Assembly: GCA_022820835.1 (NCBI GenBank)
Contig: JAJEET010000092.1
Coordinates: forward strand, 62,001 to 126,000
Length of the DNA: 64,000 nucleotides
Direction of reading: 5' to 3'
DNA from: Candidatus Poribacteria bacterium
Lineage (GTDB): Bacteria > Poribacteria > WGA-4E > WGA-3G
Below the pieces are notes generated by a model. It saw only the letters and a list, made by a program, of their open reading frames with translations, was not told where the DNA came from and did not search any database. Every line of letters starts with the position of its first letter. Positions within the stretch are counted from its first letter, which is position 1. Below, piece after piece: positions 8,501-46,346 of this stretch. A program made the position numbers and the translations under genes.

Positions 8501-9328
8501 ATGAAATTCAAACGCGAAGATATTTTAGCACAACTACGCAACAACATTGACGCTGGTAAACCCATCATTGGGGCAGGGGCTGGTACGGGTATTTCCGCCA
8601 AATGTGAGGCTGCTGGCGGCATTGATCTGATTATTATCTACAACTCTGGCAGATTCAGAATGGCAGGTAGAGGTTCACTCGCTGGGATGATGCCTTATGG
8701 CGACGCGAACCAAATCGTTGTTGAGATGGCGAGCGAAGTGCTCCCCGTTGTTCCTGATACACCGGTCCTTGCCGGTGTCTGTGGCACGGATCCGTTTAGA
8801 TTGATGGATGTCTTCTTGAAACAGATAGATGACATCGGGTTTTCCGGTGTACAGAACTTCCCGACGGTAGGACTAATTGATGGCACTTTCCGCCAACTGC
8901 TTGAAGAGACCGATATGGGATACGGGCCTGAGGTAGAGATGATTCGGACGGCAAGCCAGATGGGGATGCTTACCACACCGTATGCGTTCAACGAATCGGA
9001 AGCGGAACAGATGGCGGATGCCGGTGCGGACATTCTCGTCGCGCACATGGGACTCACGACGAAAGGGTCTATTGGTGCGAAAACAGCCTTCACATTAGAA
9101 GATGCCGCCAAACGGGTGCAAGCGATACACGACGCGGCGAAAGGGGTCAACCCTGAGATTCTTGTTATCTGTCACGGGGGTCCCATTGCTGAACCGGAAG
9201 ACGCGACGTATGTCCTGGAAAACACTGAAGGCGTTGTCGGATTCTACGGCGCGTCGAGTGCAGAACGCCTCCCAACAGAGCGGGCAATCACAGCACAGAT
9301 TGAGGCATTCAAGCAGATTCGTTTGTAG
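8501..9328 (+). CDS. Phosphoenolpyruvate-hydrolase-like TIM-barrel family protein
   Basis: 275 residues matching the TIM-barrel PEP-hydrolase/'signal transduction' family: [23 protein letters not shown] at the start, GVCGTDPFR, a central [28 protein letters not shown], and [13 protein letters not shown] near the end. Members are soluble ~275-aa barrels often fused to Tm-1-like domains; here it stands alone. The proposed activity is hydrolysis or C-C lysis of a phosphoenol/keto acid, unproven for most members. AAGGA precedes ATG 8501. Confidence 0.85.
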
Positions 9329-9332
9329 CAGT

Positions 9333-10394
9333 TTACTCCGCCAGATAGTTTTCGTTAATATAGCGGGTAATCAACTCAATCTCTTCCTCTTCAAGATAGA
9401 GTCCAATATCTATCATTCGTGTTATGAGTTCGGTTGTCTCTTCCTTAGAACGCGGTGGATAGTCTTCTACATCCGTGATTGGGTGACATTGTGAGCATCT
9501 ATCCTCAAAGAGTGCTTTCGCTTCTGCTGCATCGTAAGCCACGACTGCTGTATCGGTTGCAGCTTCTGCTTGCATAGCAACAGTCGCGGTCTGAACTGCA
9601 GTCTTCGCCTCATCTGCGCGCATCTGTTCTTGCCGCTGCTGGCGTGCCGAGACCTGAATATCCGGCGTAATCGCGATGAGATACGCCGAGACGGTCCACT
9701 CCTCTTCTTGATGGATCGGTTCCCCGATCATCGGTTTTATCGCCATCCGATTAACGAGACGTACCCAATCTGTCGGTATGCGTGGCTTCGCGAGAATCGT
9801 TCGTAAGTCGTGACAAACAACACACTTGCGCTGTAAGACGTGCTGCCCTTCCCGTAGTTTCCGTTTTGATGCGAGCTGATCAAGTGGTGCTTCGGGTGGC
9901 AATCCGGCGTTTTCAAGTAACTTACGGGTTCGAGTGATACCCTCGTCGCTGAATGCACTTGTCTGTGTACGCAACGCCGCTTCACGAAACGTGAACGGCA
10001 CCGACAATCCAATCAACAGGTACGTGCAAATAAGTAAACACGTACCGATATACGGCATTGATTCCTCAAAATGCCGGAAAAACCGGAGGATGGCAATCTT
10101 AACGAGGATCAACACACCGATTGTAATGCCGAGCATCAGGTGTGCCACGGTGCGCGGCGGGAGTTCGACTTGGTAGTTCCACAGGCGCGGCACCATGTGC
10201 CACATCATAAAAACATAGAGGATCGCATACGCGTAACCGATGAGCCGATGAAGCAGCATCAAAGAAGGCGGGGCTGCACTTTTATGCGTCTCTTTATCAA
10301 ATGGGTAACCCCACAACTTGAACATTAAGAAAACAGAGGCATTCGCGAGTCCTAAAAAAATGAGACCGAGAATTGCACTCATTGAAGTAGACAT
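9333..10394 (-). CDS. Membrane-bound dihaem cytochrome c
   Basis: 353 residues. The N-terminal ~135 residues hold four predicted membrane helices (about 4-26, 45-66, 84-104, 114-134) with several histidines (His49, 66, 85, 108) that could bind haem b. The periplasmic C-terminal part has two covalent haem c motifs, CVVCH at 191-195 and CSQCH at 300-304, separated by a long Ala/Gln-rich helix (about 250-290). It is likely an electron-transfer protein of a quinol or sugar-oxidation chain. AAGGAAA precedes ATG 10394. It lies downstream of two PhyH genes in the same direction. Confidence 0.85.
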   Translation of the reverse strand: MSTSMSAILGLIFLGLANASVFLMFKLWGYPFDKETHKSAAPPSLMLLHRLIGYAYAILYVFMMWHMVPRLWNYQVELPPRTVAHLMLGITIGVLILVKIAILRFFRHFEESMPYIGTCLLICTYLLIGLSVPFTFREAALRTQTSAFSDEGITRTRKLLENAGLPPEAPLDQLASKRKLREGQHVLQRKCVVCHDLRTILAKPRIPTDWVRLVNRMAIKPMIGEPIHQEEEWTVSAYLIAITPDIQVSARQQRQEQMRADEAKTAVQTATVAMQAEAATDTAVVAYDAAEAKALFEDRCSQCHPITDVEDYPPRSKEETTELITRMIDIGLYLEEEEIELITRYINENYLAE

Positions 10395-37214: not shown

Positions 37215-37787
37215 CTATTCGTGCAGCATCTGCTCAAAGGCTTCAATATTTTGTACCCTCGCAGCGGCGACTAGCAATCGCTTGAGTTTTTGCAAATCGT
37301 TTATATTGCGAAGTTCAGGCGTTAAGGCATCCACTGCCTCTGCCTGGAATTGATCTTCCAGCAAAGCCAAAGTGTTTTCGATGGTATTTTCTATGAGAAA
37401 TTTTTCGCGTAGGTATTGGTAAGTCTTGGATTCTTGCATGAGTCCCTCCTGTATGAGTTGGTCAAGCAGCGCAGAGGCATACACTATCCCGCCAAAAAGG
37501 TAGATTCCGTAAAGTAAATCTGCCTGTGTCCTCTGATCAACAGACACAGCACGTGTTGCATCAATGCATTCTTGTAACCACCGTTCAGGGTCCATCTCCG
37601 CAGGCGGTTGCATCAACGGTGTGAACGGCAGTAGCCCGGGTGCCTGCCTCTCCAAAACCGCTTGTCCATCTATCTCAATGAGCCGAATCACTTTATAGCG
37701 ATTGGTGTGTTCGTAATCGCCCCAACTATAGGTGTACCCGCCTGGGTCGTTCCTGCCAGCCCTTGGGTGAAAATAGATGACGTTAGC
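37215..37787 (-). pseudogene. Truncated Rpn-type PD-(D/E)XK gene
   Basis: This encodes the last ~190 residues (from VIYFHP to FEQMLHE) of a protein about 80% identical to the intact gene at 41641-42501. The first ~98 residues, including the nuclease motif, are missing. Homology stops exactly at the end of a MITE (37788), whose translation supplies a false N-terminus to the longer open frame. The gene is therefore dead or encodes only a C-terminal fragment. Confidence 0.85.
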
Positions 37788-37906
37788 AGGACTTACGCAA
37801 TTTTGATTGTAGATGGTTCTGTTAAATGAAATTTCTCGGAAAACACAGCGTCTGGTAGCACAAACTGGGAAGTTTGTGGTACAAAAGAGTGGCATGCGTA
37901 AGTCCT
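37788..37906. mobile_element. MITE-1 copy A (119 bp)
   Basis: Perfect 12-bp terminal inverted repeats, AGGACTTACGCA and TGCGTAAGTCCT. The interior (CACAAACT...AGTTTGTGGTACAAAAGAG) is shared with copies at 38373 and 38494. It truncates the Rpn-type gene. Confidence 0.85.
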
Positions 37907-37972
37907 AATACTGTAGGTGTAGTCAACTTTTCAAAAACTCTTGCAAGTGAATATTCTTTGCGACGGGATGTG

Positions 37973-38350
37973 TTAGGATTTGTCAGGATTCATTTTCAGG
38001 TTGGTTTTCGGTTTCCACTCTCGGATGAGTTCGGTTTCTAATAACACTGTTTCTTCAGCGTCCTCTGTGAATTCGACTGAAAATTGGATGATCGGTCTAA
38101 ACATCCGAAGTTGTGAATGGAGTCCATCGTTTTGTGCATTTGAATCGTGCTGCAGCAACCGTCGTCGGACACAGGTTGTGGATTCGCCTACGTAGAGGCA
38201 TTCGTTTCGTCCTTCGGTGCCGGTTTTTCGCCATAGGACATATACGCCGCTCCGTCCTGTCGGCAAGTTCAGGATTTCTTCGCGCGTGAAAGGACGTAGG
38301 TTTCGTTTGAGTTGATATTGTAGGACGTAGGGGGTAATAGTGTCACGCAT
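37973..38350 (-). CDS. GIY-YIG nuclease-domain protein
   Basis: 125 residues from ATG 38350; the longer open frame is an artefact of the MITE upstream. Core motifs: GVYVLW (35-37 GVY), CLYVGES (53-55), Arg62 in CVRRRLLQH, and Glu105/107 in LLETELIREWKPKTN. It is a single-domain nuclease. It follows the DUF1156 methyltransferase in the same direction, separated by two MITEs. It may act with that gene or be an independent passenger. Confidence 0.83.
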   Translation of the reverse strand: MRDTITPYVLQYQLKRNLRPFTREEILNLPTGRSGVYVLWRKTGTEGRNECLYVGESTTCVRRRLLQHDSNAQNDGLHSQLRMFRPIIQFSVEFTEDAEETVLLETELIREWKPKTNLKMNPDKS

Positions 38351-38372
38351 AAGGTAGAATCCATTATTATTG

Positions 38373-38491
38373 AGGACAGACGCAATTTTGACAGTAGGTG
38401 GTTCTGTTAGATGAAATTTTTCGGAAAACACAGCGTTCTGGTAGCACAGGCTAACAGCCTATGGTACAAAAGAGCAGCATGCGTAAGTCCT
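38373..38491. mobile_element. MITE-1 copy B (119 bp)
   Basis: Ends AGGACAGACGCA (two mismatches) and TGCGTAAGTCCT. The interior is nearly identical to copies A and C. It begins 22 bp upstream of the GIY-YIG start, so it may supply its promoter. Confidence 0.85.
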
Positions 38492-38493
38492 AC

Positions 38494-38613
38494 AGGATTT
38501 ACGCAATTTTGACAGTAGGTGGTTCTGTTAGATAAAATTTTTCTGAAAACACAGCATTTTGGTGGCACAAACTGGGAAGTTTGTGGTACAAAAGAGCGGT
38601 ATGCGTAAGTCTT
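38494..38613. mobile_element. MITE-1 copy C (120 bp)
   Basis: Ends AGGATTTACGCA and TGCGTAAGTCTT. It lies 2 bp from copy B in the same orientation and 2 bp beyond the stop codon of the DUF1156 gene. Confidence 0.85.
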
Positions 38614-38615
38614 GG

Positions 38616-41414
38616 TTAAGACGTAGCGTCTATCTTCATCTGTTCTGGGGAACCTATTGATTGTGAGATATATTGCCATTGGGTTACGAGGTTGTTGTAG
38701 CGTGAGGCACTTTCTGCATCGCCGCGACGTTCATAATACGTATACAGTATCCCTGCGAGACGTTTTGCCGATTCATAATCGCGCATGGCGCGCGCAACGG
38801 CAGTACATCCAGAAATGCCACCGCTTCTCTCTTTACCGGATAGATGCCACACCATTCGTAGGCAGCCTTCCCATGCGGTCATGTTCTCGCTGTTGTCGCG
38901 CTCGGCGTATTCTTCTGGTTTCAGGAGTCGAACTTTGCCGCGCGCCGAAAGCAGGAGTTTGTCGTGCATAGCCGCGAGGTCTATATCCTTCGCTTTTGAA
39001 AGTCCCTCAGCATCCCCGAAATTGCCTTCCGTGTAGCCGTGCTGCTGGAGCCATGTTAAGCAGAATTGGCTCTCTGGATCCAGTTCGCCTGTCTCCTTTT
39101 CATGATAAGCAGTGATTTCGTTGTTGATTTCTTTGAGTACTTCACGTATTGGAACAACTTCACCGCTGATTCGTGTGACTTTGCTATAGCGGGAGTAGAT
39201 CTCCATTCCTGGACCGATGGCGGCTTGTGCGAGATCAACGGGTCTGATATTTGCAATGCGCGTGAGTCGCTCAAGTGCGGGCGGCACCTCTCTTTTCAGT
39301 TCTTGTAGAAATTCGTTGCGGGTTATAGCAGGGGCATCTTTAAGGCGCGGGCGGCATACCAAAAGAATAGAGGAAGCAAGTGCATTTTTCCTTACAAAAA
39401 GGCCCGCAGTCTGTTCTGTCCGTAGGGGCCAGGTAGCAACTATCTGAAAACCTGCATTGACAATTGCTGTAAGCATCGTCTCCCATCCGGTGGAGGTTCT
39501 GCTCCCGTGTTCCTCCTCTTGCTGTCTGTAGGCGTAAAAAATAGAAGTAGGAATTTCTGGTGAGCAGTATCGGCGTATCTGTCGAAGCGACTTTCCCAGA
39601 AGATTCTCAAAATGTTGTGTCGGGTTTTCAAACCGTGGACTGGCAGTTATCTCCTCAGCCGTTGGGGTCATCATACCTGCAAACAGCTCTGGGTAGATAT
39701 GGCGTAGGAGAGGTCTCAGCCAGACGTAGAAGAATTCGGAGAGATCTGCGTAGCCAACATTGTCGTAGTACGGTGGATCTGTGATAATAACAGGCATATC
39801 CTGAGCATGAGGAGTCGTACATACGTTCGCCTGATCCGCTTCTCCAATGTTTGTAGGGGCCGGAAAATTCTCAATAACCTTTGCTATCCATTCCACCTGT
39901 GCCATCCAATTCTGCGTTGAAAAAGAAAACGGATTTGTTTCAGCGAAACCCCAAGTCATCTGAAGGACCTGCCGTGTAAAGGCTGTCCTGACTACCTCAT
40001 CAGTATCTTGCCACCAAGAAAAGCGGCTTCCACTCTCAGCGGTTCTACCAATGGCAAGAGATAGATACGTGCAAATAGCATTGGTATATTCTCTAGATGC
40101 ACCATCCTGAGTAAGTTGATCGCGGACCTCAAATAACAGATCAGTAAGGGTATTTAGTGTTAAAAGTTGTCGTTTTGTAAAAAGTTGGTGCCAATGTGTG
40201 ATTCCATAGTTCTGGACTCTGAACCCCAGTGCTTGTCGCGGTAGTCTTCCGCTGGGTCGCCAATCAGGTGCAACAGACTGGACTACTTGGATGTGTGCAT
40301 CAGTGGGTGACAAAAATAATTTTCTACGATTCCCCTCAGCAACTACCGCTATCATTGTTTCGCCTATTTTACCTGCTTTTGATTGTTCTCGAACATAATC
40401 TAGCTTAACAGCAGTCCCGCATCCGCAACAGGACGCCCCAGAACGGTTGACAGTAGACTTCGGTACTCCTTTATTATGCGTTTGCACAATCCACGAAATC
40501 GTGTTAGATTCTCGATCAATAACCGGTTTAACCCAATGCTCGTTGTTTTTTTTCTTTGACAACTGAAAAGTTTTCATCAGGGGCATCTGAAGGCCGCAGG
40601 CAGGATTGCTACACGGCACCGTGCGCGCCCAGAGCCACGCGACTACAGTAGCAGAAGTGCCATCTGGCAAGTCTACTTTCGGATAGAGATGCCCGATGCG
40701 TTTGTGTGCTTCTTCACGCATCCACGCGCCGTAGTAGCGGATGTCGGCTGCCAAGCCTGCGGTGCCTTTCCACGGGGAACGTGTCCGCTTTCTACCTGTG
40801 CCGGTGAACATTCCGAGCGGATCGGCATCGGGGTTGATAGGGTTCTGGTCATGAAATTTCGGCGGTAATTCAATCATTGCCTTGTTGAGTAAAACAGGTA
40901 GCGGGTTCAGATCGGAGGCGCGGGCGCGTAAGCCTAAGCGTTGTGCTTCGAGGGGAATAGAGCCTCCGCCACAGAACGGGTCATAGACAGCGGGACAGTG
41001 GTCATGGAGGTATTTTAGGACAGCCTTTGGATCGTTTTTGAATTTTTCACGAAAAACGGATAGGTTTTCCCCGTTGTTGCGTGCGACAGAATACGCGATT
41101 TCGTAACGTGCTTCTGCTAAGAGGTTTTCATCGTTGCTATTTTGCCATATCACGAGTCGTTTGATAATTTCGTGGAGTCGGTTGCGTTCAGCGTTCTGTT
41201 CGGGTTCGGTTGGGAATTCGTCTTTGCATTCGGAGGGGTCGTCCACCATACTGGCGAAAACGACAGCGCGACAGGCAGCGAGCGGGCGGCGTGCCCAATA
41301 GCGGTGCAGTGTTGAGGGGTGTCCGTGTGTGAGCGAAGCATCTTTTGCTGACTCTACGTTAATGGCTTGGAGCGGTATATTGACTTCAATGAGTTTTTTT
41401 CGGTAATTGGGCAT
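38616..41414 (-). CDS. DUF1156 adenine-specific DNA methyltransferase
   Basis: 932 residues. The N-terminal DUF1156 region (IEVNIPLQAINVESAKDAS, HRYWARRPLAACRAVVFA) is followed by SAM motif I DPFCGGGSIPLEA (145-157), a zinc-ribbon insert (Cys268/273 and Cys329-332) and the catalytic DPPYYDNVGY (546-555), i.e. an N6-adenine/N4-cytosine MTase. COG1743-type proteins with a zinc ribbon are the PglXI-like methylases of BREX-type systems. The gene may be co-transcribed with DUF499, but a PD-(D/E)XK gene and a MITE now separate them. Confidence 0.9.
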   Translation of the reverse strand: MPNYRKKLIEVNIPLQAINVESAKDASLTHGHPSTLHRYWARRPLAACRAVVFASMVDDPSECKDEFPTEPEQNAERNRLHEIIKRLVIWQNSNDENLLAEARYEIAYSVARNNGENLSVFREKFKNDPKAVLKYLHDHCPAVYDPFCGGGSIPLEAQRLGLRARASDLNPLPVLLNKAMIELPPKFHDQNPINPDADPLGMFTGTGRKRTRSPWKGTAGLAADIRYYGAWMREEAHKRIGHLYPKVDLPDGTSATVVAWLWARTVPCSNPACGLQMPLMKTFQLSKKKNNEHWVKPVIDRESNTISWIVQTHNKGVPKSTVNRSGASCCGCGTAVKLDYVREQSKAGKIGETMIAVVAEGNRRKLFLSPTDAHIQVVQSVAPDWRPSGRLPRQALGFRVQNYGITHWHQLFTKRQLLTLNTLTDLLFEVRDQLTQDGASREYTNAICTYLSLAIGRTAESGSRFSWWQDTDEVVRTAFTRQVLQMTWGFAETNPFSFSTQNWMAQVEWIAKVIENFPAPTNIGEADQANVCTTPHAQDMPVIITDPPYYDNVGYADLSEFFYVWLRPLLRHIYPELFAGMMTPTAEEITASPRFENPTQHFENLLGKSLRQIRRYCSPEIPTSIFYAYRQQEEEHGSRTSTGWETMLTAIVNAGFQIVATWPLRTEQTAGLFVRKNALASSILLVCRPRLKDAPAITRNEFLQELKREVPPALERLTRIANIRPVDLAQAAIGPGMEIYSRYSKVTRISGEVVPIREVLKEINNEITAYHEKETGELDPESQFCLTWLQQHGYTEGNFGDAEGLSKAKDIDLAAMHDKLLLSARGKVRLLKPEEYAERDNSENMTAWEGCLRMVWHLSGKERSGGISGCTAVARAMRDYESAKRLAGILYTYYERRGDAESASRYNNLVTQWQYISQSIGSPEQMKIDATS

Positions 41415-41428
41415 TTATGCTGTTCTCA

Positions 41429-41575
41429 CTACTGTGCAGGCGACGACCTTTCTACTTTTTTAGTATTTTGCAGTTCCGGGTGTGCCTGTCTGAGCGTTCC
41501 AAGGTTGGGGGCTCTGGCAGCGGCGATGAACACTTTTTGCAGGTTTTTGTTCAATATCTCCATTTCTTCAAACAT
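41429..41575 (-). CDS. Small ORF upstream of the methyltransferase
   Basis: 48 residues (MFEEMEILNK...ERSSPAQ) from ATG 41575, with GGGAGAA six bases upstream, and ending 14 bp before the DUF1156 start. The first half would form an amphipathic helix. No family recognised. A good ribosome site and tight spacing favour a real small protein or leader; chance remains possible. Confidence 0.5.
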   Translation of the reverse strand: MFEEMEILNKNLQKVFIAAARAPNLGTLRQAHPELQNTKKVERSSPAQ

Positions 41576-41606
41576 GATGTTCTCCCGTCCCGTTACGGTG
41601 TTAATA

Positions 41607-41632
41607 AGGGCGGCCCCCGTTCCTACCGCCCT
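41607..41632 (-). terminator. Hairpin after the Rpn-type gene
   Basis: Perfect 7-bp stem AGGGCGG/CCGCCCT with a 12-base loop, 8 bp past the stop of the gene at 41641. There is no T-tract. It shows the same stem as the hairpins at 6635 and 19661. Confidence 0.45.
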
Positions 41633-41640
41633 CCTGACTA

Positions 41641-42501
41641 TTATTCGTGCAGCATCTGCTCAAAGGCTTCAATATTTTGCACTCTCGCAGCGGCGACTAG
41701 CAATTGCTTGAGTTTTTGCAAATCGTTTATACTGCGAAGTTCAGGCGTTAAAGCATTCACTGCCTCTGCCTGGAATTGATCTTCCAGCAAAGCCAGAGTG
41801 TTTTCGATGGTATTCTCTCTGGCGGCTCTTTCCATTTGGCGTTGGTAAGTTTTAGATTCTTGCATAAGTACCTCCGGTATAAGTCGTTCAAGTAATTCAG
41901 CATTATACACTATCCCACCAAAGACAGAGATTCCGTAAAGTAAATCCGCTTGTGTTTCCTGATCGATGGGGGCAGCTCGCGTTACGTCAACGCATGCTTG
42001 CACCCAACGTTCAAGGTCCATCCCCGCAGGTGGTTTCATGAGCGGCGTGAACGGCAGTAGCCCGGGTGCCTGCATCTCCAAAATCGCTTGTCCATCTATC
42101 TCAATGAGCCGAATCACTTTATAGCGATTGGTGTGTTCGTAATCGCCCCAACTATAGGTGTATCCGCCTGGGTCGTTCCTGCCCGCGTTCGGGTGAAAAT
42201 AGATGACATTTGAGTAGACCGGCATCTGGTATTTGCCGACGAGATATCCTTGATATTGTGCGTTTCTTGCCCACATCGGTGTGTCTGTACTATCGCGGAG
42301 TTGCAATTCGACATGGAGAATGGCTTCGTGACCGTTGATGCGGATCTGCTTTATGATGTCGGTTTCCCGCTCGATAATTTGCTGCTCGGTGCCCAGGTCT
42401 GCCAGCACTTCAACGTTATCTGCGTCCAGTACGAATCGCGAGAGGTCTTCGGCGTGGTCTGCCCATAACTTTTTTCCGATATTGTCGTAGTCTTGTGCCA
42501 T
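41641..42501 (-). CDS. Rpn-family PD-(D/E)XK recombination-promoting nuclease/putative transposase
   Basis: 286 residues from ATG 42501. The nuclease core lies in the first third: ERETDIIKQIRINGHEAILHVELQLR with Asp48 and Glu65-x-Gln67, then WARNAQYQGYLVGKYQMPVYSNVIYFHP. The C-terminal helical half (ENTLALLEDQFQAEAVNAL, LQKLKQLLVAAARVQ) matches the Rpn/transposase-31-like layout. Such genes promote recA-independent recombination and often sit as solitary mobile passengers. A truncated paralogue lies at 37215. Confidence 0.85.
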   Translation of the reverse strand: MAQDYDNIGKKLWADHAEDLSRFVLDADNVEVLADLGTEQQIIERETDIIKQIRINGHEAILHVELQLRDSTDTPMWARNAQYQGYLVGKYQMPVYSNVIYFHPNAGRNDPGGYTYSWGDYEHTNRYKVIRLIEIDGQAILEMQAPGLLPFTPLMKPPAGMDLERWVQACVDVTRAAPIDQETQADLLYGISVFGGIVYNAELLERLIPEVLMQESKTYQRQMERAARENTIENTLALLEDQFQAEAVNALTPELRSINDLQKLKQLLVAAARVQNIEAFEQMLHE

Positions 42502-42555
42502 GGATATAGTATACTTCAAACAGTGGAAAAATGTCAAACAAATATAGGGCGAGGT

Positions 42556-42606
42556 TGCACAGACACAAACTAAAAGTTTGTGCTACAAAAGAAACGTAAA
42601 TCCTAT
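42556..42606. mobile_element. MITE-1 fragment
   Basis: CACAAACT...AGTTTGTGCTACAAAAG followed by ACGTAAATCCT matches the right half of MITE-1. The left end is not seen. It lies in the gap between the Rpn-type gene and DUF499, beside a second element. Confidence 0.5.
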
Positions 42607-42639
42607 TATACCGTGAGTTTGATAAAAGGGATGGATTCT

Positions 42640-42870
42640 TGTAGGTTGGGTTGAGCGGTAAAACCATAGGGGCATTTTCGCTATACACAGCCTTCTCTCG
42701 AATCACCCGTTGAGGTAGATAAGTTTAGCGAAACCCAACATCCCAAACCGTGTCGGTCTCATAAGGCGTTGGGTTACACTCAGTTTTTGGTGATTTCAGG
42801 TAGCTCTGTTTCCTTGAAAACGCTGTGCTGTGTGCGATTTTTAGGAGGTTTCCGTTCAACCCAACCTACA
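42640..42870. mobile_element. MITE-2 candidate (231 bp)
   Basis: Perfect 15-bp terminal inverted repeats, TGTAGGTTGGGTTGA and TCAACCCAACCTACA. Further AACCCAAC / GTTGGGTT copies lie inside (near 42730 and 42770). There is no open frame of note. It occupies most of the 378-bp gap downstream of DUF499. Confidence 0.7.
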
Positions 42871-42915
42871 GGACGCTTCAATTTTTATTTTCTAACTCAC
42901 GTTATTATAGTTAGG

Positions 42916-45900
42916 TTAATCGCTTTTGAATTCTGCGTTGAGGTGTTCGCTGTTTTGCTTCACTGCGCGGGTGGTGTTTTCCGAAAAGCCGTCTGATTTG
43001 TTGGCGGTAACGATGATTTCGACTTTCACTGTCCCGCCATCGTCTTTCAGGGTCCGGGCAATCTCGTCTTGGATGCTGTCAATCTCATTGCTAAAAGAGA
43101 GTTCTAACTGCAGCGCCTTCGTAACAACAACGTGTGTGGGTCCCTTTGCTTGTGGTGGTTCGACCAAACCGTCATTCGGATCATCTCCTGTCTGCTCTCC
43201 TGTGTCTGGTGCTGGTTCGGGAGTGTCCGGCGGTTTCTGCTGCTTATCTCTTTCTTCCTTGCGTAACTTCGCCAGTTCAGGGGTTATGAGGACAGCGGTA
43301 GTACCCTTTTCTATCCGGAGACCACCGACCTGTTCTTCAAATCGGACGTTGCGGTAGTCGCCATCCTGATACGCCCTGGCGTATCCAAAGATGCCTGCTT
43401 CGACTCCGGCTCTAATGCACGTCGCCAAGACGTTCCGATCTTTCAATCGTGGCATGTAGACGTTTTGTGCCATGAGTTCCCAGAGGCGTTCTATTTCAAT
43501 GTGGTCTTGGTAGGTATCGCTACTCCAGACGTATTGTTGCAGTTTTGCAGCAAAGATATCGGGGTCAATTTTTGTGACAATTGAATCGTCGTCAATGAAT
43601 TTGTCTCGGAGACGCTTCATAATTCTGCCATCTTCGGGTCTTGTCTCAGCGGTAGAGAAGTTGTAGGCAGCCTCTCGCTCGTCCGTTTGGGAGGGTGTGA
43701 GTGCCCATCGATATGCCTTGAACAAGGCGTTTGTTACCGCGTCTTCAGCAGCTTCGAGATTTTCTTTTGTTTGATCTAACCTTTCACCTTCAAGGGGGGT
43801 GAGTGCGCCGTGTAGGAGGTCTCCGTTCATGATGGAGTTCCACGCGAGATAATTTTTTATAAGGTTTCTGAGTTCTCGGATGTCGTCTCGCCGTGCTGCG
43901 ATGAAGAGGAGCGTGTTTCTGAAGGTACGTTGCTTTTCATCCTGTCCACTGTATTTGAGAATCTTGCGTGCAGCCTCGCTTGCTATATCGGTCTCCTTGT
44001 CGCGGCTGGGTAGAGATGCCTGTGGTGGCAGAATGACGTACTGAATCGTCTCCGAATCCTTTACGAGGTCAGAAGATGTTGGGCAGATTTGAACGCTCGA
44101 ATCGCGGCCGATTGCCCTTTGTAATCGTGAGACAATTTCACTGTGGATATCGTCTTCGGTGTACGCTGCCGCGCGATCTATGGCGACCTTGTTCAAATTT
44201 TCTTGCGTATGGAAGTAGTATCTATCATCAAGATTATAGAGAAAATAGAGGTTGCCCGTCATTCTGTTGAGTGCGTCATTGTAAACTGCAACGCCTTGTC
44301 CGGGTTCGACAACTCCGAGATGAATCTGACGCATCGTAACACCTTTGACAGCGCGTCCGGTTGCACTACCGAGGAAAACAGTGCGGGCGACTCGACGCGC
44401 TGCGCTACCCACTTCAATGAAACTTTGAGAACTTTGATCAATCTGGTCGGTCCGGGAGCCGTGGCTGTCCACTTCTTTTACGACGGGGTCCCAATTTCCG
44501 CCAGCTCTTGCAAGCAGTCTTGTGAATTCATCGGCGAGTGCGGGATCATCAAGCGCAAGGTTTGCGGGCATTATCAACAGGGACGGATCCTGTTCTTGGT
44601 AGAGGCGGGAGATGCAAGTCGCCATGATGCGTAGTACACCGCGGGTGCGTTGAAATCCGGGAATAACTGCCCAATCCTCAAAGAGTCGATCGAATATTTC
44701 GGGATGGATCGGGTAGCAGTCTTTCATTCGTTGCAGGTAGTGTTGATCGCTAACATTATTTGGATATTCACTGCGCGAGTTCTGATACATCCTGCGGAAC
44801 GCTTCGCACGTCAAGTCGCGTTCTGTCTGTTCGTCGTCAGTCATATTACTAAACAATCGCCTACGCACCACCTCGAATGCGTTATCCACTTCTAAAGGTA
44901 TTGAGACAGCGTCCACCCTTTCCAGAATAGACTCGAGGGTATCCAGAACAGTCATGCCCCCTTCACCACCGGCTTGGATTTGTCCCTCTGGCAGCGTTGC
45001 TACGAGTGTAACATTTTTGGTTCTCTTTACAGACTCGGTAACGGCTTGAAAAAAGGTATAAATGCTCTCTTGTGTAACACCTTGTACGTTACGGACATAA
45101 GCGACGAGTTCATCCATTAGAATAACAGAGGGACCGACGTGTTCAAACAGGGCATCCAACTGGTTTCCACCCGGAGCGGAGCGTTCAAGCGCAGCTCGCC
45201 GTATGATATTATAGGCATCCTGCCCGCCGAGTTGATCCGCCATTTTTCCCCAGAGTGTATTGAGTGGGTCACCTTGTTGGGTTTCATCTGCATCGGTGGT
45301 AGAAAGATAGGTGCCGACAAGAACAGAAACGTTAGCATTAAGGAGTGTGTCGGCATCGCAGCCTGCCTCGTTTAGGATGTCATCAATTTCTGCCCGGAGT
45401 CGCGCGTACTTATCCGCTGCTGGAAGTTCCGTTAGGATGTTAATTCCGGTAACGAGGTGATAAAGCGCGATGAGACTATGGGTTTTCCCGCCGCCGAAGC
45501 CGGTTTTGAGTTGGATAACAGGATCGCCATCTTTACCGCCGAGGCGTTTCAAGGTGTTGACTAACAATTGCCGGAGTCCGGGCGTGATGTATGTCTGATT
45601 GAAGAAGATTTCGGTTTCGCCGTATTCGGGTGTCTTAGCCCTACCCTCAAATACCTCTTGAAGGTCCGCGGCGAATTCTGACTTTCGGAATGTGCCTTGA
45701 ATAACATCGGCATTGGGCCGTATCACATCGCGCCATGATTTTAGGTCTGCAGTTTTTCTTCGTGGGAGCTTCGGTTTGGTTTCCGAGGGGGATGTTGCCT
45801 TGGCGAATAACCTGTCTCGGATGGTTTCAACTTCACCTTTCTGTTCTGGGGCATTGATTTGTCCGAGCATGTCTGCGATTTCATGGAGTCGAGCTAAAGC

Positions 45901-46206
45901 ATATCCTAACGCGAGGTCTTCTGTTTCAGTGTGAAAAGTGTTATTCCGCGCTTCAGTTATTATACCCACAGCACTGCGAACATCCCGATCTGGATCAAAG
46001 CGATGTTTAAAAACATCGTGCCAGTACTTTCTGAAGAGGTGTGGAAAGTCACCAAAGTCTATATCCGCTTCGTTTTGAAAGCGATCTTCTGGTGATAAGC
46101 CTTGCACGGTTTTTAGGTTTCTAAGAATAAAAGGACGCATGGCATCACAGTAGATATTGAGTGCTTGATAAAGTGCGTCCTGATTTGGACGGTTGGGCGA
46201 ATTCAC
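42916..46206 (-). CDS. DUF499 ATPase with N-terminal HEPN-like domain
   Basis: 1096 residues from GTG 46206. The N-terminal ~125 residues are a helical domain with R87-x4-H92 in TEARNNTFHTE, the catalytic pattern of HEPN ribonucleases (Swt1-type). Then Walker A TGFGGGKTHS (235-244), Walker B SVILMDELVAYVRN and a long DUF499 body. A Pro/Asp-rich linker leads to a C-terminal beta domain. COG1483-type proteins pair with DUF1156 methylases in phage-defence islands and resemble BREX ATPases. A strong promoter lies upstream. Confidence 0.88.
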   Translation of the reverse strand: MNSPNRPNQDALYQALNIYCDAMRPFILRNLKTVQGLSPEDRFQNEADIDFGDFPHLFRKYWHDVFKHRFDPDRDVRSAVGIITEARNNTFHTETEDLALGYALARLHEIADMLGQINAPEQKGEVETIRDRLFAKATSPSETKPKLPRRKTADLKSWRDVIRPNADVIQGTFRKSEFAADLQEVFEGRAKTPEYGETEIFFNQTYITPGLRQLLVNTLKRLGGKDGDPVIQLKTGFGGGKTHSLIALYHLVTGINILTELPAADKYARLRAEIDDILNEAGCDADTLLNANVSVLVGTYLSTTDADETQQGDPLNTLWGKMADQLGGQDAYNIIRRAALERSAPGGNQLDALFEHVGPSVILMDELVAYVRNVQGVTQESIYTFFQAVTESVKRTKNVTLVATLPEGQIQAGGEGGMTVLDTLESILERVDAVSIPLEVDNAFEVVRRRLFSNMTDDEQTERDLTCEAFRRMYQNSRSEYPNNVSDQHYLQRMKDCYPIHPEIFDRLFEDWAVIPGFQRTRGVLRIMATCISRLYQEQDPSLLIMPANLALDDPALADEFTRLLARAGGNWDPVVKEVDSHGSRTDQIDQSSQSFIEVGSAARRVARTVFLGSATGRAVKGVTMRQIHLGVVEPGQGVAVYNDALNRMTGNLYFLYNLDDRYYFHTQENLNKVAIDRAAAYTEDDIHSEIVSRLQRAIGRDSSVQICPTSSDLVKDSETIQYVILPPQASLPSRDKETDIASEAARKILKYSGQDEKQRTFRNTLLFIAARRDDIRELRNLIKNYLAWNSIMNGDLLHGALTPLEGERLDQTKENLEAAEDAVTNALFKAYRWALTPSQTDEREAAYNFSTAETRPEDGRIMKRLRDKFIDDDSIVTKIDPDIFAAKLQQYVWSSDTYQDHIEIERLWELMAQNVYMPRLKDRNVLATCIRAGVEAGIFGYARAYQDGDYRNVRFEEQVGGLRIEKGTTAVLITPELAKLRKEERDKQQKPPDTPEPAPDTGEQTGDDPNDGLVEPPQAKGPTHVVVTKALQLELSFSNEIDSIQDEIARTLKDDGGTVKVEIIVTANKSDGFSENTTRAVKQNSEHLNAEFKSD

Positions 46207-46240
46207 GTTTTCCGAACTCCGTTTCCGTAATTTTCCGAGC

Positions 46241-46269
46241 AGTGTAGCATATCAGCGATTTTAGGTCAA
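46241..46269 (-). promoter_or_regulatory. Promoter of the DUF499 gene
   Basis: Read on the minus strand: TTGACC, 17-bp spacer, TACACT, 35 bases before the GTG start. Confidence 0.65.
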
Positions 46270-46317: not shown

Positions 46318-46346
46318 TTGACAAATTCTGGGATATATGGAATTAT
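46318..46346 (+). promoter_or_regulatory. Possible promoter of the J-domain gene
   Basis: Perfect TTGACA, 17-bp spacer, AATTAT (4/6). It lies 35 bases before ATG 46381 and is back-to-back with the DUF499 promoter. Confidence 0.45.

Follow-up and report, generated by a model that had tools for sequence, protein, structure and literature searches.

A conserved, helicase-less branch of Hma / Type-1 BREX-related systems that carries a GIY-YIG nuclease

Hma (helicase–methylase–ATPase) systems were named by Payne et al. 2021 (PMC8565338) and are Type-1 BREX-related (BR) systems, in which a Swi2/Snf2 helicase is one of three core parts (Rakesh & Krishnan 2026, PMC12839542). HEPN–DUF499 restriction–modification systems with an SNF2 helicase were described by Anantharaman et al. 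2013 (PMC3710099). The described DUF499-centred (Hma / BREX-related) systems all have a Swi2/Snf2 helicase, and the branch reported here differs from them in this respect. It is represented in a 64,000-nucleotide stretch of Candidatus Poribacteria DNA (the window), which covers bases 62001–126000 of the 150.9-kb contig C19 (JAJEET010000092.1) in a genome of 163 contigs that is 94% complete; in a scan of named genomes, its nearest relatives are Candidatus Poribacteria. Three proteins form the core of the system: the ATPase HmaC (HEPN–DUF499), the adenine methylase HmaB (DUF1156) and a nuclease of the GIY-YIG family.

With Hma, as modelled in PADLOC, the window system shares full-length homologous HmaB and HmaC, but it has no HmaA in the locus, carries a GIY-YIG gene and is ordered C-B-GIY, in contrast to the A-B-C order of Hma. 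The HEPN–DUF499 ATPase and DUF1156 N6-methylase are also those of Type-1 BREX-related systems, whereas the Swi2/Snf2 helicase of the latter, usually fused to a PD-(D/E)XK restriction endonuclease, is missing. A C-terminal RRM-like domain is a further trait of the DUF499 ATPase in that class. BREX types 1–6 likewise have an ATPase and an adenine methylase, with distant homology (PglXI, 8e-10); however, PglZ, BrxL, BrxA/B and BrxC are absent from the window locus. Membership in BREX was rejected because the locus contains neither PglZ nor BrxL and its proteins score far higher as HmaB and HmaC. PglZ matches in the same genome are confined to contigs C40 and C59. An earlier note on this DNA had used BREX as its yardstick and had seen no PglZ, BrxL or helicase. 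The absence is confirmed, as none of the three is found near the module in the window and the locus lies inside the 150.9-kb contig. The yardstick itself was misplaced: for a derived Hma / Type-1 BREX-related system PglZ and BrxL were never expected and a helicase is, so the appropriate comparison set is Hma.

The nucleases listed in the main text of PMC12839542 are PD-(D/E)XK, HEPN, HNH, TOPRIM, PIN, HKD and Schlafen; GIY-YIG is mentioned nowhere in that main text. In the searchable full texts, DUF499 and GIY-YIG co-occur in a single paper, as unrelated items; supplementary tables and subscription papers, which lie outside this scope, may list the combination.

HmaC matches the PADLOC HmaC model over residues 154–1091 (753 bits, 1.5e-226) and Pfam DUF499 above the cut-off (E=5e-29), and all listed relatives have the Walker A motif GFGGGKT. 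Its N-terminal HEPN domain, searched alone, falls just below the cut-off of HEPN_Swt1 (PF18731; 1.4e-5, 25.8 bits, cut-off 27.5), a family that matches 7/7 members of the HmaC family (best homologue E 4e-11). The R-x4-H motif of the domain is kept in 32 of 33 HmaC relatives; the exception, L060, has an R to L change and also a frameshifted methylase. An AlphaFold model of the domain is all-helical, with a predicted local distance difference test (pLDDT) score of 72, and a fold search of the PDB with this model gave no informative match. The HEPN domain is present in every GIY-type HmaC. Domains of the same type (38–41% identical) also occur in other proteins of related genomes (L167 9339–11693; L168 ~9097–9483), one of them 784 residues long, which makes the HEPN domain of HmaC a mobile module.

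HmaB aligns with the PADLOC HmaB model from residue 5 to 920 of its 932 (911 bits, 2e-274) and with Pfam DUF1156 above the cut-off. Motif I (DPFCGGG) is located at residue 145 and motif IV (DPPYYD) at residue 546, and C268, C273, C329 and C332 are near-invariant in the alignment. Both proteins are thus what the earlier note had taken them for, a DUF499 ATPase with a HEPN-like R-x4-H motif and a DUF1156 adenine methylase with DPPYYD. Its third assignment, the GIY-YIG nuclease, holds as to family (Pfam E=2e-7, above the cut-off) and not as to start: the listed open reading frame (ORF) reaches 38431, the conserved start is the ATG at 38350, giving 125 residues, and the first 27 codons of the longer version fall inside a dispersed ~120-bp repeat. 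The false N-terminus results from the insertion of these repeats.

The G-x-Y and Y-x-G motifs and the catalytic Arg, Glu and Asn are invariant in 24 relatives of the nuclease, down to 38% identity. Its AlphaFold model (AF2; pLDDT 87) matches in Foldseek the GIY-YIG domain of UvrC (1yd6, template modelling score 0.77) and also R.Eco29kI. The GIY-YIG type II restriction enzymes R.Eco29kI and Hpy188I resemble the window protein in fold, catalytic residues and a DNA methylase partner. In contrast to them, it has just 125 residues, its fold is closer to the UvrC domain, and its partner methylase is BREX-related, with a recognition region that changes while the nuclease stays constant. All three core genes are under purifying selection: the ratio of nonsynonymous to synonymous substitution rates (dN/dS) relative to relatives is 0.08–0.11 for HmaC and lowest of the three, at 0.04–0.07, for the GIY-YIG gene.

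Other genomes were surveyed by one scan of genome contigs and in two samples, of ~290 and ~390 genomes. A full-length GIY orthologue was found in 28 of 289 genomes, 27 of which also have window-type HmaC; Fisher's test, uncorrected for kinship, gives p=6e-25 with 146 genomes searched for HmaC, a value that is indicative only, since the genomes are related. The GIY family is almost never present without HmaB/HmaC. A lone intact orthologue without HmaB or HmaC lies at L156 9386–9766 (genome G061), its flanks having some genes in common with one recurring site of the system.

The order C-B-GIY without HmaA was observed in ~30 genomes, drawn from Poribacteria, Latescibacterota and Dehalococcoidia. 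Of these, 24 belong to the Poribacteria order, a few of them with a single gene that is frameshifted or contains a stop. The Latescibacterota contribute one (L080) and the Dehalococcoidia five (L081, L082, L085 with L179, which spans the chromosome origin, L176 and L177); at L178 the locus is interrupted by a contig end. Some copies lie on near-complete single chromosomes, which shows that the trio is not a binning artefact. Judged by the neighbouring genes, two sites recur and eight further contexts are unrelated, giving at least ten genomic contexts. In the Latescibacterota genome the system (L080 1519–15396) is located between a pyruvate dehydrogenase E1 gene and a 2-oxoacid dehydrogenase acyltransferase gene. 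In an 80-locus scan, nearly all other HmaB loci with sufficient contig reach contain helicase, methylase and ATPase, usually as A-B-C, without this GIY family. No phage-borne copies of the system were found in viral contigs. Judging from isolate names, many carriers appear to be sponge symbionts.

In the HmaB tree, which was rooted with an outgroup, the GIY type forms one clade (support 100). This clade falls within the helicase-type systems and is sister to two helicase-type loci of Dehalococcoidia (L083 and L084). In the HmaC tree the GIY type is again one clade, on a long branch (support 99). G067, from the Poribacteria order, groups with the Latescibacterota locus L080. Monophyly in both trees fits a single origin, in which HmaA was lost and GIY-YIG acquired, followed by transfer among phyla.

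The PADLOC HmaA model has no match on contig C19, and tblastn with both helicases found elsewhere in the window's genome detected no HmaA in any orthologous locus. These two full HmaA genes (1687 and 661 bits) are on contigs C15 and C21, each adjoining its own HmaB and HmaC, and window-type HmaC is only 28–38% identical to the HmaC of these loci. Nine of 28 genomes with window-type HmaC, one of them 97% complete, have no HmaA genome-wide (E<=1e-30), and three Dehalococcoidia carriers have weak generic helicase matches only (<=127 bits, against 600–1700 for a real HmaA). Since the locus sits intact inside its contig, there is no assembly break at the module; together with the HmaA-free carriers, this indicates that HmaA was neither lost to such a break nor is generally supplied in trans. 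The two further HmaA-HmaB-HmaC systems of the window's genome are complete (L012, C15 33300–47443; L014, C21 70764–82179); one closely resembles the PADLOC Hma models, the other is divergent, and the genome thus has three DUF499 systems in all.

Comparison of close relatives revealed that HmaB is a mosaic with a divergent central block (residues 361–700) between conserved ends. In most genome pairs whose HmaC and GIY are 90–97% identical, the block is just 58–66% identical; genomes with 95% identical HmaC and 94% identical GIY have a block identity of 58–61% and HmaB ends of 79–93%. The synonymous divergence (dS) rises to 2.2 in the block versus 0.5 in its flanks. One close pair of genomes has a common allele, 94% identical. 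This divergence pattern is, at the level of sequence, the signature of exchange of a target-recognition region (TRD). Across 105 pairs, GIY identity correlates with HmaC identity (Spearman 0.82) but not with that of the TRD (-0.28). A GIY nuclease with a matched recognition site of its own would not survive such swaps; specificity therefore most likely comes from the methylase HmaB, and the GIY-YIG protein is probably a generic cutter. Methylase-set specificity would agree with type I BREX, where site recognition by BrxX is required for both methylation and defence (PMC11842806).

We consider it probable that the window encodes a working anti-invader Hma / Type-1 BREX-related system that has lost HmaA and has a small GIY-YIG DNA nuclease in its place, in the order C-B-GIY, and that operates as follows. 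HmaB would methylate adenine at a DNA site that is particular to the host and determined by the exchangeable block in the centre of HmaB. Where incoming DNA carries unmethylated sites, HmaC would use ATP to form a complex there with HmaB, and this complex would license the GIY-YIG protein, devoid of a large recognition domain, to cut this DNA. The HEPN domain on HmaC would cleave RNA as a second, growth-arresting response. The anatomy of this real, conserved, helicase-less and GIY-YIG-bearing branch is well supported, and the mechanism is what we infer from it. The suggestion of the earlier note that the system is minimal or derived, with the putative killing roles falling to HEPN and GIY-YIG, is supported by the recurrence and monophyly of the trio, its purifying selection and the lack of a helicase genome-wide in nine relatives; the note had also named an assembly break and a lack of recurrence as possible objections, and the contig is intact and the combination recurs in ~30 genomes.

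Several observations weigh against this anti-invader interpretation. The GIY-YIG protein, with UvrC as its nearest structure, could be repair-related or purely regulatory; the Hma genes on C15 and C21 could be the helicase source in the window's strain; and the biochemistry of HmaC may have shifted, given its long branch. The Latescibacterota carrier has a true HmaA on another contig. Some copies are broken, with a stop in GIY (L054), a frameshifted HmaB (L060, L072) or deletions (G010, G007), and G073 (L071) has window-type HmaC and HmaB with neither GIY-YIG nor HmaA detectable and a pentapeptide-repeat-like ORF after HmaB. At L163 8754–8992 (genome G007), the usual site holds a deletion scar in which the first 36 residues of HmaB abut the last 50 of GIY-YIG, from which we conclude that the system has been cleanly lost in some strains.

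Three other explanations bear on the same data. A mainly RNA-level abortive infection, in which HmaB/HmaC sense unmethylated DNA, the HEPN RNase is the real effector and GIY-YIG has a minor role in relieving self-toxicity or processing DNA ends, would account for the HEPN domain in every GIY-type HmaC, compared with ~56% of Type-1 BREX-related taxa in the literature, and for the nearly invariant R-x4-H. Yet the GIY active site is invariant, the dN/dS of the GIY gene is the lowest of the three and its linkage is as tight as that of HmaB, which makes this explanation rather unlikely. Decay of an Hma system, with HmaB persisting as an orphan methylase and HmaC and GIY-YIG as leftovers, is unlikely: it is suggested by the missing HmaA, the inserted repeats that separate HmaB from GIY in the window, and the frameshifts, deletions or scar in a few relatives (L060, L068, L072, L163), but the window and most of the ~30 genomes have all three ORFs intact, dN/dS is 0.04–0.11 with catalytic motifs preserved across three phyla, and an architecture of single origin is maintained in many contexts.

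Finally, the complete Hma loci on C15 and C21 might lend their HmaA in trans, leaving GIY-YIG as a backup nuclease. The two HmaA genes of the window's genome, and likewise of many relatives, would provide for this. As a general rule it is rejected by the nine HmaA-free genomes and the Dehalococcoidia carriers without true HmaA, and for the window we regard it as quite improbable, both HmaAs adjoining B and C genes of their own and the HmaC proteins being so dissimilar.

The branch may, as we tentatively propose, represent a third mode of DUF499/BREX-related defence, namely restriction without helicase or translocase. In this mode the exchangeable methylase would supply all sequence specificity, the ORC/Cdc6-like ATPase would act as a gate and a generic UvrC-like GIY-YIG protein would cut, as a distinct subtype moving between unrelated phyla. 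A natural, conserved and helicase-free branch makes the role of the helicase in Hma / BREX-related systems (translocation, sensing or nuclease carrier) directly testable. The branch also extends the nuclease repertoire of this class by GIY-YIG, and the exchange of its methylase block points to specificity set by the methylase. As a compact three-gene system with a 125-residue nuclease, it is suited to biochemistry.

Table 1. Features of the module in the window
Feature	Position	Strand	Evidence
HmaC: HEPN (Swt1-like)–DUF499 AAA+ ATPase, 1096 aa, first gene of module	42916..46206	-	PADLOC HmaC, Pfam DUF499
N-terminal HEPN domain of HmaC, aa 1-155	45742..46206	-	Pfam HEPN_Swt1; RNNTFH at aa 87-92
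298-aa ORF between HmaC and HmaB, multicopy passenger	41641..42537	-	15 matches in own genome
48-aa ORF, decayed C-terminal remnant of 298-aa family	41429..41575	-	298-aa query matches orthologous stretch
HmaB: DUF1156 N6-adenine DNA methylase, 932 aa	38616..41414	-	PADLOC HmaB, motifs I and IV
Hypervariable central block of HmaB, aa 361-700, putative target-recognition region (TRD)	39315..40334	-	identity and dS comparison
~120-bp MITE-like repeat, two tandem copies between HmaB and GIY-YIG	38373-38492, 38494-38614	.	repeat comparison
GIY-YIG nuclease, 125 aa from conserved start	37973..38350	-	Pfam, residues, AF2 model
~120-bp MITE-like repeat, third copy, downstream of GIY-YIG	37788-37907	.	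repeat comparison
226-aa ORF, truncated second copy of 298-aa family, start fused into repeat	37215..37895	-	direct repeat and protein match

The module is located on the minus strand and is transcribed in the order HmaC, 298-aa ORF, 48-aa ORF, HmaB, GIY-YIG and the truncated second copy of the 298-aa family; all three core ORFs are intact. A divergent DnaJ-domain gene lies upstream at 46318 and the flanks consist of ordinary metabolic genes. PADLOC identified no convincing defence genes among the ten neighbours of the module.

The succession of ATPase, methylase and GIY-YIG had been recognized previously; the 298-aa ORF between the first two had been missed. It is found in most Poribacteria copies, is missing from L066, L067 and L082, and gave nothing in Pfam, NCBIfam or PDB searches. 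The family has a conserved D...E-x-Q pattern, which is Rpn/PD-(D/E)XK-like by motif alone. As a core nuclease the ORF was rejected, given the several trios without it and the 15 matches of the family in the window's genome. The 48-aa ORF, earlier counted as a module gene, coincides in part with a degenerate copy of the C-terminal end of this family: residues ~236–294 of the 298-aa query match the orthologous stretch in L048 and L051. It was accordingly rejected as a system gene or antitoxin. The region of the 226-aa ORF forms a 300-nt direct repeat with 41603–41902 (85% identical; protein match 82%).

The ~120-bp element, which resembles a miniature inverted-repeat transposable element (MITE), is present in ~40 copies in the genome and has terminal inverted repeats AGGACTTACGCA/TGCGTAAGTCCT. 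In L046 the gap between HmaB and GIY is ~20 bp and free of these repeats. A family of NYN-domain (PIN-like) RNases lies beside or inside loci of both Hma types (L080 13409–14032; L081 8684–9307; L095 9350–9970; L150 10318–10929). Present in 2 of ~30 trios (L080, L081) and also beside the ordinary Hma loci L095 and L150, it was rejected as a component of the system and is an occasional accessory.

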